Notes under the pieces: model-generated | What the model saw: only the letters and a program-made list of their open reading frames with translations | Database searches by the model: none | What the model was told of the DNA's origin: nothing | Virus record (IMG/VR): IMGVR_UViG_3300041409_001227 | Coordinates: 1-42,919 of that record | Strand: one strand, 5' to 3' | From: a virus | Length of the DNA: 42,919 nt | In this document: in pieces, positions 12,675 to 17,596 of the stretch | How the letters are laid out: every line of letters begins with the position of its first letter | Numbering within the stretch: position 1 is the stretch's first letter | Translations under genes and position numbers: made by a program

Positions 12675-12703
12675 TTGTGGCCCGCGTATCCGGCCAATAA
12701 TAT
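12675..12703 (+). promoter_or_regulatory. weak sigma-70-like promoter candidate
   Basis: TTGTGG (12675-12680), 17 nt, TAATAT (12698-12703), in the 69-nt gap before the NusG-like gene. Match to consensus is modest; it is listed because this is one of few gaps in the early operon. Confidence 0.25.
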
Positions 12704-12735
12704 CGCATCACAGGGACAATGTAGGGGATACGGAA

Positions 12736-13320
12736 GTGCAGACAGAACTTAAGGAATTGAAGATCGGCGATTTTGTAGGGTTCATGAAGCCCGAAGATCT
12801 GGCGCGATCAGAACGCATCACGCTCACCGGTACGGCGCGCTGGTTCTGCGCTATCGTCAAAGCGAACCGCCATAAGCGCGCCGAACTCGATTTAGGCCAA
12901 CTCGGCTTCAGGTCATTCTATCCTAGAAGCCGCAAGTGGACATCGCACGCACGCGTAAAGACGGCGAAGGAGTTTCCGATCCTTGGCCGTTACATTTTTG
13001 TGGAAATCGACTATCCGAGGCAATCGTTCCTCACGGTCGATCAGGTGATTTATATTGATGGCCTGATCAAAAACCAAGGCACAGCGATTCCATTCCCCTC
13101 GCACTGGATTGAAGGCCTGTTAATGCGCTACATGGCCGGCGAGTGGGACGAGATCGCTAACGGCAAGATTCCAGTCGGCGCCCGCATCCGTATCGTCGAA
13201 GGTGAATTCCAAGACCAGTTGGCGACCGTTCTGAGCACGAAGGGTCGACGCGTCAACTTCAAGCTTCTTGGCGATACCAAAGAGGCCAGGCTGGACCAAT
13301 CTAGCGTGAGGGCCGCGTGA
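12736..13320 (+). CDS. NusG-like transcription antitermination/processivity factor
   Basis: 194 aa with a GTG start (GGGGAT upstream at 12724-12729). The N-terminal domain has the NusG NGN pattern: ARWFCAIVKANRHKRAELDL, then GFRSFYPRSRKW, then PILGRYIFVEID and VIYIDGLIKN. The C-terminal part has KIPVGARIRIVEGEFQDQLA and a GRRVNFKLLG beta segment, i.e. a KOW domain. It sits downstream of the early genes and just before the packaging and structural operon. A late-transcription processivity role, analogous to specialised NusG paralogs such as RfaH and LoaP, is inferred. It overlaps the next gene by GTGA. Confidence 0.82.
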   Translation: MQTELKELKIGDFVGFMKPEDLARSERITLTGTARWFCAIVKANRHKRAELDLGQLGFRSFYPRSRKWTSHARVKTAKEFPILGRYIFVEIDYPRQSFLTVDQVIYIDGLIKNQGTAIPFPSHWIEGLLMRYMAGEWDEIANGKIPVGARIRIVEGEFQDQLATVLSTKGRRVNFKLLGDTKEARLDQSSVRAA

Positions 13321-14188: not shown

Positions 14189-14383
14189 ATGACCGCAACA
14201 GTCCTCGCATTCCCCACACCAGCACCAAAGGATGGCGGGAAGGCGCGGATCAAACTTCGCCGCGAGAGATTCGGTCTAGCGGCACCAAGGCCAGACGACC
14301 TCACGCAGCGTCACGCGGACCCGGAAGATACGGGGATGCCGAGCGACTCACCTTATCGCGCGCCTGCACGCGACGGCGCATAA
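14189..14383 (+). CDS. hypothetical small protein
   Basis: 64 aa from ATG 14189. Contains TVLAFPTPAPKDGG and RIKLRRERFGLAAPRPDD; polar, probably disordered. An upstream in-frame ATG at 14126 overlaps the previous gene. Low information. Confidence 0.4.
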   Translation: MTATVLAFPTPAPKDGGKARIKLRRERFGLAAPRPDDLTQRHADPEDTGMPSDSPYRAPARDGA

Positions 14384-14388
14384 CCATT

Positions 14389-14454
14389 TCAGGCGGCGAG
14401 CAGACGACAGGTAGCTGAAGACCTGGACTCCGCAGTTCAGCCTAAACCGCCTGA
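14389..14454 (+). ncRNA. possible structured RNA with enclosed H-type pseudoknot
   Basis: Complementary segments: an outer stem TCAGGCGG (14389-14396) with CCGCCTGA (14447-14454). Inside it are CAGGT (14408-14412) with ACCTG (14421-14425), and GCTGAA (14414-14419) with TTCAGC (14436-14441). The two inner stems cross, giving an H-type pseudoknot. The element fills the non-coding gap between 14383 and the start of a small membrane-protein gene at 14474. No ribozyme or riboswitch class is recognised. Chance pairing is possible because inner stems are only 5-6 bp. Confidence 0.4.
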
Positions 14455-14473
14455 TTCATAAACCGAGGCAACC

Positions 14474-14656
14474 ATGAAACGCGCACAGTTCGTTGCGGCT
14501 GCTCTGTGTGCGCTGGTATGTGCGGTGCTCTCGGTCGCAGCCATCCATGAAGGTAAGTGGATCGCCGCTGGCTTCGCTGCGCTGGGGTTCGTGGGCTTCG
14601 CTGTAGCCGCGTTCTGCGCAGCGGTTCGGATCGAGATACCCAAGGGCGGGGTGTAG
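14474..14656 (+). CDS. small two-TM membrane protein
   Basis: 60 aa; GAGGCAACC precedes ATG 14474. Two hydrophobic segments (VAAALCALVCAVLSVAAI and WIAAGFAALGFVGFAVAAF) separated by a short HEGK turn, ending in a polar tail. Inner-membrane location is expected. It abuts the HNH gene (TAG then GTG). Function unknown; holins are found elsewhere in this phage. Confidence 0.6.
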   Translation: MKRAQFVAAALCALVCAVLSVAAIHEGKWIAAGFAALGFVGFAVAAFCAAVRIEIPKGGV

Positions 14657-14989
14657 GTGGCAGCACCACGGGCCACGGCACATCAGCGAGGATATGGCGC
14701 CGCCTGGAATAAAGCGCGCAAAGGATATCTGAAATCCCATCCGCATTGCGTTATGTGCGCAAAGCAAGGGTTGCAGGTCCAAGCGACGGTAATCGACCAC
14801 GTCAAGCGACATGGCGGCGACCAAGCTCTCTTCTGGGATAAGACAAATTGGCAGTCGCTTTGCGAGCCGCACCACAACTCGACCAAGCAAAGGGATGAGA
14901 GCCGAGGCTACGTATCGGGATGCGATGCATCGGGCAGGCCACTAGACCAAACCCATCCATGGAACGCCGCCGCGAAGGCGACGGGGTAG
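14657..14989 (+). CDS. HNH endonuclease (packaging-associated)
   Basis: 110 aa with a GTG start directly after the preceding TAG. The HNH fold is shown by Cys31-x2-Cys34 (HCVMCAKQG), the DH pair Asp47-His48 in VIDHVKRHGG, Asn64 (DKTNWQSLC), Cys69 and His72-His73 (EPHHN). HNH proteins encoded beside the terminase are components of DNA packaging in HK97-like phages, where they assist cos cleavage. Position immediately before TerS/TerL fits that role. The C-terminal GRPLDQTHPWN tail is also typical. Confidence 0.85.
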   Translation: MAAPRATAHQRGYGAAWNKARKGYLKSHPHCVMCAKQGLQVQATVIDHVKRHGGDQALFWDKTNWQSLCEPHHNSTKQRDESRGYVSGCDASGRPLDQTHPWNAAAKATG

Positions 14990-15015
14990 GGGGGTCAAAT
15001 CTCTGGCGCTAAGGG
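14985..15015 (+). other. candidate cos region
   Basis: At the end of the HNH gene lies GGGGTAGGGGGGTCAAATCT (14983-15002), between HNH and TerS, where cohesive-end sites are found in related HNH/P27-terminase phages. The G-tract followed by TCAAATCTCTGG resembles sequences I associate with this junction. No direct evidence of cleavage. Confidence 0.25.
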
Positions 15016-15027
15016 AGCGTAGACCGC

Positions 15028-15150
15028 ATGGATACCTCCGTTTGCATCGGGAACGGAAATCAAAGGCGACCCATCGAATTCAAAGATACAACAGAAGCCA
15101 AGCTTCTGTTTCTTAAAACGAAAATCGTCTGTTTGATTTCGGAAACGTAA
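15028..15150 (+). CDS. 40-aa small ORF
   Basis: ATG 15028 preceded by AAGGGAGCG (15011-15019). Product MDTSVCIGNGNQRRPIEF then KDTTEAKLLFLKTKIVCL. It fills the HNH-TerS gap. If cos lies here, this could be a non-coding spacer; confidence is low. Confidence 0.3.
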   Translation: MDTSVCIGNGNQRRPIEFKDTTEAKLLFLKTKIVCLISET

Positions 15151-15168: not shown

Positions 15169-15681
15169 ATGCCGAGAGGTGGAAAGCGCGACGGTGCGGG
15201 GCGCAAGCCGAAAGAGCAGCCGGTGCTGCGGCGGGAGCCGAGGGTCGCTCCGGTCGCGTTCGCAGTTATTGAGGGCGGCGACCTGCAGATTGCAGAACCG
15301 GATTGGTCCGCACAGTTCACCGACGAACTAGACCAGGCGCTGGCGCATCAGCAGTGGCTCGTTATCGCGGGCGAGCTGCGCAACACCGAGAAGCTGGCGC
15401 ACGCCAACGAGAGGCAGATTAAACGGCTGATCGACTCCTATGTGCTTTACGAAGTCGCGATGCGGCACGTCGCGGAAGAGGGTGCCGTGTTTCCGTGCAA
15501 GGGCAAGAAGCAGCCTGCGTACAATCCATGGTTCACAGTTTTGAAGGACGCGAACGCGATGGCGTCGGCCGCTGAGGCCGAACTAACGATCACGCCGCGC
15601 CGACGAAACAATGGCGGAAAAGTCCAAAGGAAAAAGCCCTCGGTCATCGGCGGTGGTTACCTCAAGTCGACTGCCCGATGA
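15169..15681 (+). CDS. terS: terminase small subunit (P27 family)
   Basis: 170 aa. The N-terminus PRGGKRDGAGRKPKEQP is the classic P27-family opening. The middle is helical and ends with the conserved pattern YVLYEVAMRHVAEEGAVF, NPWFTVLKDANA and a short basic tail. The small subunit recognises phage DNA and regulates TerL. The gene overlaps TerL by 71 nt in another frame. SD is weak (GGCGGAA well upstream of ATG 15169). Confidence 0.88.
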   Translation: MPRGGKRDGAGRKPKEQPVLRREPRVAPVAFAVIEGGDLQIAEPDWSAQFTDELDQALAHQQWLVIAGELRNTEKLAHANERQIKRLIDSYVLYEVAMRHVAEEGAVFPCKGKKQPAYNPWFTVLKDANAMASAAEAELTITPRRRNNGGKVQRKKPSVIGGGYLKSTAR

Positions 15682-17596
15682 TCCGGTCACGCGCTGGGCG
15701 CGGGACGCGGTTAAAGGACAAATCGTTGTAGGCGAGTTGGTCCGATACGCGGCCGAGCGGCAACTGAAGGATTTGGTCGACGGCGAAGGCCGCGGGATTT
15801 TCTGGAGGCCGGAGCGCGCAATCCACGCGCTGGGGTTCTTCCCCAACGTACTTCCGATCACTGCCGGCGCGATGGTTGGCGAGCCGTTTAATCTTCTGCC
15901 GTGGACTTCGTTCTGTGTCGGGTCGCAATTCGGATGGCACATCGCGGACGGCCGACTGAGGTTCACGAATAGTTGGTGGGAGACTGGAAAGGGCCAGGCG
16001 AAGTCGCCCGCAATGGCGGCGGTCGGTCTCTACCTGATGGGTTATCGGGGAATCCGCCGATCTGAGATTTATGCAATCGCTTGGGATAAGGACCAGGCGA
16101 ACGTTCTGTTCAAAGACGCTGTGTCAATGTGCCGCGCGCCGATCCCAGGCACTGACGCGGACGACAACGACACACTTGAGGCTCGCGGGGAAGTTATTAT
16201 CCGCGGACGGCTAGACCACGCTTGGCGGATTGAGCACCCCGCAACAGAATCTAAATTTCAGTCGCTAGCGAACGGCGATGCGATCTCTGGTCCGCGCCCA
16301 ACGGCGGTGCTGGCGGACGAGATACACGAATTCAAAAGCGCCGAGGCAATCGAGCTTTGGAAGCGCGCCATCGCCAAAATGCCCGGCGACGCGATCATGG
16401 TGCTGGGCACAAACACGCCGGCCTCAACGCAGATCGTCGGTACGCAGTTCAGTGATTTTTACCAGAAGATCGTCAAGGGAGAACATAAAGACGATACCGC
16501 GTTCGCTTTCATCGCTCGCGTCGACAAGGCCGATAAACCGTTTGAAGACGAATCTTGCTGGCCTAAGTCGCTTCCCGCGCTCGGCATCACGTTCCCGATC
16601 GACAACATCCGGCGCGAAGTCAACACCGCGAAGATCCTGCTCTCGACGAAAATGTCGGTGCAGCGTCTCTACTTCGGGATACCTGTCGGGTCGGTTGATT
16701 TCTGGATTGCGGAAGAGGCATGGGCTGCGGTTCAAAGTGGACCTGATCGTCCGTTTAATCTGGCGCCGCTAAAAAAATGCAAATGCTGGTTGTCTCTCGA
16801 TCTTTCGCAGAAGAACGATTTGACCGCACTGAGCGCAGGCTGGCTCGATGACAACGCACACCTCTGGGTCAAAACTTGGTACTGGACGACGAAGGACGGA
16901 ATAGCCGAGCGCTCGCTGTCTGATAATGCCCCTTACGATCAATGGGCCGACCAGGAGTTTTTGACGCCGGTCCTTGGCGCAGTAATTGACAAGACGTTCG
17001 TTGCCGCCAAGGTCAAGGAGATCGTTAGCGAATACGACGTTCAGTTTATGGCCTTCGATCCCGCCGGTATGGGCGATTTCATGAAGGCCTGCGAGGACAT
17101 CGGGTTTGCGGTTTGGTTGTGGGAGGGGCCGGAGTCACAGGTTGGTATCGGCCTCAAGCTGATTTCGCATGGTCAAGGTCTTCGCGTTCTTTTCTACAAA
17201 GACCTAGACGAGAGCGGACAGCCCATTGAGCGGCTGTGCATGCCACGCTCGGTTGAGCGTCTTGAAGATCGGGTGCTCAACAAAACAATTACGATCGAGG
17301 CTTCGCCCGTTACTTATTCGTGCGCAGCTAACGCGATGCTGGCGGTTGATGGTCAAAAGAACCGAGCATTCGACAAGAAGCGATCTCGTGGTCGGATCGA
17401 TGGGCTCGTGACAATCGCAATGGTCAACGGTGCCGCATCGGCAACCGTTAAAGCCGACAAAAAGTCCGGTTGGGATACCGACGATCTCGACGCGCTGATG
17501 GCAAAGATCGACGCTGCAGCAGCCGAAGCCGACGAGGAAGTAAATGGGCAAGCGGTTGTCGAAGGTGTTGTCGGGTCTGCCGGGGGCTCTATGTGA
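15611..17596 (+). CDS. terL: terminase large subunit
   Basis: 661 aa. ATPase: Walker A-like WWETGKGQAKS (122-132), Walker B VLADEIHEF (D236-E237), and motif III LGTNTPAST. Nuclease: first acidic residue in WLSLDLSQKNDLTAL (about 393-407) and a second acidic site in FMAFDPAGMG (about 480), typical of the RNase H-like terminase nuclease. The pre-Walker region (PFNLLPWTSFCVGSQFGW) is also characteristic of the Terminase_1 family. This motor cuts and pumps DNA into the prohead. A small membrane protein gene overlaps its 3' end by 53 nt. Confidence 0.93.
   Translation: MAEKSKGKSPRSSAVVTSSRLPDDPVTRWARDAVKGQIVVGELVRYAAERQLKDLVDGEGRGIFWRPERAIHALGFFPNVLPITAGAMVGEPFNLLPWTSFCVGSQFGWHIADGRLRFTNSWWETGKGQAKSPAMAAVGLYLMGYRGIRRSEIYAIAWDKDQANVLFKDAVSMCRAPIPGTDADDNDTLEARGEVIIRGRLDHAWRIEHPATESKFQSLANGDAISGPRPTAVLADEIHEFKSAEAIELWKRAIAKMPGDAIMVLGTNTPASTQIVGTQFSDFYQKIVKGEHKDDTAFAFIARVDKADKPFEDESCWPKSLPALGITFPIDNIRREVNTAKILLSTKMSVQRLYFGIPVGSVDFWIAEEAWAAVQSGPDRPFNLAPLKKCKCWLSLDLSQKNDLTALSAGWLDDNAHLWVKTWYWTTKDGIAERSLSDNAPYDQWADQEFLTPVLGAVIDKTFVAAKVKEIVSEYDVQFMAFDPAGMGDFMKACEDIGFAVWLWEGPESQVGIGLKLISHGQGLRVLFYKDLDESGQPIERLCMPRSVERLEDRVLNKTITIEASPVTYSCAANAMLAVDGQKNRAFDKKRSRGRIDGLVTIAMVNGAASATVKADKKSGWDTDDLDALMAKIDAAAAEADEEVNGQAVVEGVVGSAGGSM

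Follow-up and report, generated by a model that had tools for sequence, protein, structure and literature searches.

Does the short non-coding gap ahead of the packaging genes of this phage encode a structured RNA and, if it does, what might that RNA do? The window, by which we mean the whole stretch of viral DNA analysed (42,919 nt; IMG/VR record IMGVR_UViG_3300041409_001227), holds the candidate element in a 90-bp intercistronic gap at 14384-14473; all of the genes and stems described here lie on the + strand. Upstream of the gap is an ORF for a basic protein of 64 aa (14189-14383), whose TAA stop codon falls 5 nt before the outer stem of the element. Downstream are a small membrane-protein ORF of 60 aa (14474-14656), with a Shine-Dalgarno-like GAGG read from the sequence at 14465-14468, 11-14 nt past the outer stem, and then the HNH endonuclease that is the first recognisable gene of the packaging module (14657-14989; PHROG 2323, E 9.6e-39), the terminase small subunit TerS (15169-15681; PHROG 83, E 6.9e-9) and the large subunit TerL (15611-17596; PHROG 9, E 9.9e-102). 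This order agrees with an earlier, sequence-only reading of the locus, which had placed a candidate pseudoknotted RNA just upstream of a membrane-protein gene, an HNH gene and terminase. One concern there was that the segment might prove to be coding. The gap at 14384-14473, which lies between ORFs, is non-coding, but to call it the only one there slightly overstated the case, as a second gap with just a possible 40-aa ORF separates the end of the HNH gene at 14989 from the start of TerS at 15169.

The same gap lies between homologous genes in three other phage sequences, L207, L210 and L003, all of which encode homologues of the membrane protein. Homologues of the upstream ORF are found in these and in L211, L215, L216, L007 and L086, and searches of PHROG and Pfam returned no match for its product. 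The encoded protein (KARIKLRRERFGL ... HADPEDT) is seen upstream of HNH-terminase in many relatives, and could be a candidate RNA-binding partner. Separately, the region between HNH and TerS (14985-15090) contains a run of G and, near 15035-15085, a conserved stretch that is seen in many distant terminase relatives, and is a candidate cos or terminase-binding site.

The helices proposed from the window sequence, a 5-bp and a 6-bp stem that cross inside an 8-bp outer stem at 14389-14454, are all present. The outer stem P1 pairs TCAGGCGG (14389-14396) with CCGCCTGA (14447-14454), stem S1 (P2) pairs CAGGT (14408-14412) with ACCTG (14421-14425), and the pseudoknot stem S2 pairs GCTGAA, in the S1 loop (14414-14419), with TTCAGC (14436-14441). 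Taken by themselves, these stems are no more than chance level. Crossing stems of 5 and 6 bp turn up in 13% of the dinucleotide-shuffled gaps and in 24% of all 90-nt windows, and an 8-bp outer stem in 1.3% of gap shuffles. The full arrangement was found in 0 of 3000 gap shuffles, once on each strand of the actual window and 0-1 times in each shuffle of the whole window, with about 0.6 expected per strand of the window by chance. The fold of lowest energy is unexceptional (z -1.0), and energy minimisation favours a competing nested hairpin, CTGGACT-CCGC-AGTTCAG (14423-14440), over the pseudoknot; this hairpin is not kept in L207. Support for the element comes instead from its relatives.

The most direct support is provided by L207, a 55-kb contig found by a search with the membrane protein of the window, which shares both genes flanking the gap. 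Its gap reads TCAGGCGG-CGAGCGATTGAA-GGGC-A-GCTAAG-GCCC-GGATGCATCGCAA-CTTAGC-TTCAA-CCGCCTGA, so that the 8-bp P1 is unchanged while 21 of 51 interior columns differ. Between the window and L207, S1 changes from CAGGT/ACCTG to GGGC/GCCC, two of its pairs being compensated and its loop differing by a 1-nt indel, and S2 from GCTGAA/TTCAGC to GCTAAG/CTTAGC, with two of its six pairs altered on both sides and all six kept in register. L207 re-forms both crossing stems by paired substitutions. When 18 random substitutions were simulated, about 2e-4 of runs kept both helices and had two or more compensated pairs in S2. A shuffle control on the window and L207 (120/500) was without power because only two sequences were available, and the case for the pseudoknot is therefore carried by the simulation and by the reading of the pairs. 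Crossing helices, covariation and feasible loops are all those of an H-type pseudoknot (loop 1 of 1 nt, an interstem of 0-1 nt and loop 3 of 10-13 nt), a form seen in these two sequences only. A search of 392 genomes with a model of this form (R2) returned no match, and so no third example of it. This comparative evidence supports a genuine structured RNA in the gap.

A similarly placed structured RNA of a different build is present in ten or more further phages or prophages, at the same site as in the window or slightly upstream. In L003, whose terminase is 93% identical over the aligned part to that of the window, and in L210, the syntenic position holds an unrelated interior, preceded by TAACCAA and closed by a perfect stem of 7-8 bp. 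The L003 version also occurs in L211, L215 and L216, just ahead of HNH-type or other module genes. A covariance model built from these (R1) brought in L086, L007 and L163, a Tardiphaga contig, and a genome search with R1 added L233/L318, a prophage in another genome of this genus. The remaining genome matches of R1, a model without the third stem P3 that yielded many weak matches, look like chance in coding sequence. Pattern scans returned 78 stretches, among them one real new contig (L259) and five contigs already known.

In these relatives, P1 is 7-8 bp, P2 is 5-6 bp with a 9-nt loop (consensus AxYUxAUYG), and P3 is about 5 bp with a GACG loop. Alignment of nine sequences leaves 95.6% of cells paired, with 8 of 19 pairs changing on both sides, and P1 covaries across all nine three-way-junction members. 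The 27 both-side changes compare with 10.1 in shuffles (0/500), while slid controls gave 40-50% paired and at most one double change. RNAalifold, unaided, returned the same three-way junction. Helices of the nine members contain U-G and G-U pairs, which would become A-C mismatches on the opposite strand, and the RNA is thus that of the + strand; covariation in this way shows both the structure and its strand. We also considered the pseudoknot as a family-wide fold and rejected it, as the loop-to-junction pairing is short or absent elsewhere and P3 fits the conserved letters better. For this reason the pseudoknot claim is retained for the window and L207 and given up as a general fold, the other members forming three-way junctions.

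The final model (R3) recovers its nine members at E 3e-10 or better, as it must by construction, and L007, which lies outside the model, at E 0.007. Across 392 genomes of the family of L163, 397 of its order and 29 others, strong matches were confined to two Tardiphaga genomes, one of which holds a second copy of the element (L323). All strong matches fall in phage contigs or in terminase-bearing prophages or contigs of these same Tardiphaga genomes; in most of the related terminase phages searched, no element was found. R3 matches L320-L322, L324 and L325 were rejected as chance, as was an exact 18-mer match in L002, which lies inside coding sequence. Two related loci (L225 1501-1567 and L227 491-557) have a similar-looking CCGGCC..GGCCGG with a CCACGC/GCGTGG hairpin; their loop is shorter, no phage genes were found nearby, and they were left out of the family.

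How do the two structures relate to each other? The pseudoknot of the window and L207 (form A) occupies the same site as the elements of L003 (form B) and L210 (form C), and all three forms have the TAACCAA prefix and the outer stem. The P2 loops of form A (AGCUGAAG and AGCUAAG) are similar in pattern to AxYUxAUYG. R3 gives the window and L207 only 4.3 bits, so that homology of the forms is argued from synteny and the flanking TAACCAA rather than from sequence. By synteny, the position of form A is orthologous to that of the element in the relatives; the structures are related-looking, and their common descent is putative.

The sequence-only reading could name no ribozyme or riboswitch class for the candidate, and Rfam 15 bears this out. 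The window contains no gathering-threshold match; the window and L216 had no match up to E 10, and L163 gave chance-level scores only. The best score was 13.2 bits, to sul1, far below the cut-off of that model. Searching annotated phages for the element gave no close match, with E-values near 1-10 that amount to noise. The element as predicted from these alignments is a structured RNA family absent from Rfam 15.

Cis-regulation of late genes, one of the roles first suggested for the candidate, is the best general reading of an element that covaries, is non-coding and sits at the head of the packaging module, and the element probably serves a soil-bacterium phage as a hitherto undescribed switch or landing site by which its DNA-packaging genes are controlled. 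Most members have a stop codon no more than about 11 nt ahead of P1 and a start codon 1-38 nt after it, and this stop-to-start position recurs at the module head. The gene that follows varies between members (the membrane protein, HNH, or small ORFs of no assigned function). No intrinsic terminator was found on the + strand between 13300 and 15200, where P1 is followed by TTCATAAACC, and the other members are without a T-run; nor was a sigma-70-like promoter found on this strand near the element. More specifically, and tentatively, we infer an intercistronic RNA acting in cis, by which translation of the first genes of the packaging module would be tuned or coupled, a reading that we put at somewhat short of an even chance. 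The gap would be transcribed within a polycistronic phage message and act in cis as a structured RNA. A ribosome terminating on the upstream small gene would halt 5 nt before the P1-closed structure, which would itself lie where ribosomes bind for the next gene, at the start of the packaging module. With P1 folded, the downstream start would be poorly accessible, or its spacing would be set; the ribosome that has just terminated, or a protein of phage or host attached to the P2 loop, might then open or fix the structure, and expression of the packaging module would be tuned or coupled as a result.

The placement of the Shine-Dalgarno sequence bears directly on this translational reading. In L211, L215, L216, L259 and L318, bases resembling a Shine-Dalgarno sequence overlap P1 on its 3' side or directly adjoin it. 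The window, L207, L003, L210, L163 and L086 have 12-38 nt between P1 and the start codon (19 nt in the window), with the Shine-Dalgarno sequence outside the stem. Since P1 leaves it free in these six, occlusion cannot fully explain the element. A further limit is that the pseudoknot of the window has one independent relative, with energy minimisation favouring the nested fold. Among the closest parallels are translationally coupled intercistronic structures, which likewise lie between the stop and start of co-directed genes, can be opened by ribosomes and sometimes cover the Shine-Dalgarno sequence. The present case differs in that a pseudoknot or three-way junction whose architecture is conserved and whose helices covary appears repeatedly among phages, in front of different genes and without always covering that sequence. 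H-type pseudoknot operators such as the T4 gene 32 leader resemble the window in their 1-nt loop 1, coaxial stems and location upstream of a gene start. Here, however, the pseudoknot is enclosed in an 8-bp outer stem, has no known binding protein and is replaced by a P3 hairpin in relatives.

The rival that survives best, although we consider it unlikely, holds that the element is a nascent-RNA landing site for processive antitermination, with a polymerase modified by a NusG paralog, or by the RNA alone, reading through the packaging-head-tail operon. A phage NusG paralog that may be an antiterminator, and would be the candidate trans factor, is encoded at 12736-13320 (Pfam PF02357, E 2.3e-8, above its cut-off; PHROG 6386 'transcription antiterminator', E 1.1e-13). 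Such a gene lies 0.8-2.1 kb upstream of the element on the same strand in seven of the nine assessable cases (the window, L003, L207, L215, L259, L007 and the L318 prophage). HK022 put, which consists of two hairpins, is similarly a compact phage RNA that acts in cis and shares the strand of its target genes, without a sequence or structural match to the element. It is reported to act in early operons, and to suppress termination as an RNA by itself (PMC9378689). A further precedent is the NusG paralog LoaP, which binds a small leader RNA hairpin that is required for antitermination (PMC12691694). Like the element, the LoaP-dfn leader is a small RNA structure, and a NusG paralog is nearby in most members of our family, but the LoaP hairpin is of UNCG type, in contrast to a three-way junction with a GACG loop or a pseudoknot.

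Against antitermination, the type of NusG paralog does not track the element, and its presence shows no significant association with it. About 15 of 33 element-less relatives also encode one (Fisher p 0.13, with many records being fragments), and none was detected in L210 and L211, which have the element, although such absence calls depend on contig completeness. The window and L207 share one form of the RNA, yet their NusG paralogs are 29% identical, and the closest relative of the paralog in the window is that of the element-less L065. Furthermore, no terminator was found near the element for antitermination to suppress. We are equally doubtful of a broader proposal, namely an undescribed class of alphaproteobacterial-phage RNA in which pseudoknot and three-way junction are interchangeable at one syntenic site and act as a recognition element that would switch on the packaging/late operon, possibly via NusG paralogs.

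Two further observations concern the surroundings of these NusG genes, which this phage group often carries immediately ahead of its packaging module and whose sequences diverge strongly. Another conserved non-coding block, at 12679-12741 (GGCCCGCGTATCCGGCCAATAATATCGCATCACAGGGACAATGTAGGGGATACGG), shows 91-97% identity over 45-64 bp in L207, L215, L216, L003 and L211, and is partly present in L210. It sits ahead of differing genes (the NusG paralog or others), has a possible CGTATCC/GGATACG stem that is lost in L211 and no match in Rfam, and is possibly a shared promoter or leader. Additionally, a strong hairpin around GGTGATTTTCACC follows the NusG gene in the element-less relatives L019 (1645-1693), L017 (2305-2354) and L065 (1780-1878), directly after the stop codon in the first two and about 0.4 kb further on in L065. 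This is perhaps another RNA with the same role.

A role in mRNA processing or stability, through an RNase site or an exonuclease barrier that parts early from packaging transcripts, is rather unlikely. Phages are known to have RNA structures between cistrons that act in these ways, and the compact, GC-rich element does separate differently regulated gene blocks, with its shape conserved while its sequence varies. It lacks, however, the long regular duplex typical of RNase III sites, and the conserved loop letters (GACG and AxYUxAUYG) suggest specific recognition over a mere barrier. It is improbable that the stems are a product of chance, with the outer stem an incidental inverted repeat and the agreement of L207 luck or a DNA-level palindrome. 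The 0.6 arrangements expected per strand, the unremarkable fold energy and the lack of a close sequence match in annotated phages would fit this explanation, but it must contend with the compensatory retention in L207 and with L003 and L210, where independent structures covary at that syntenic position. A ligand-sensing riboswitch or self-cleaving ribozyme is very improbable: small pseudoknot or three-way-junction folds, conserved loops and a leader position are typical of both, but Rfam gave no riboswitch or ribozyme match at E-values as high as 10, the element is confined to phages and no metabolic gene is fixed downstream. A packaging-motor RNA, another of the roles first suggested and here compared with phi29 prohead RNA, is scarcely credible even with a position beside the terminase genes and a three-way junction in the relatives, as the phi29 RNA (about 110-170 nt) is part of a different motor, whereas the element measures 66 nt or less, belongs to a phage with an ordinary TerS/TerL pair, is missing from most related terminase phages searched and occupies a stop-to-start gap as cis elements do.

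To our knowledge, the activation of packaging and late genes in temperate phages of Rhizobiales such as Tardiphaga has been little studied. A compact, covariation-supported RNA at the head of the packaging module offers a defined and mutable handle on this control, and adds a structured RNA family to those in Rfam 15. More generally, the exchange of a pseudoknot for a three-way junction at a single site would be an instructive case of structural turnover in RNA.
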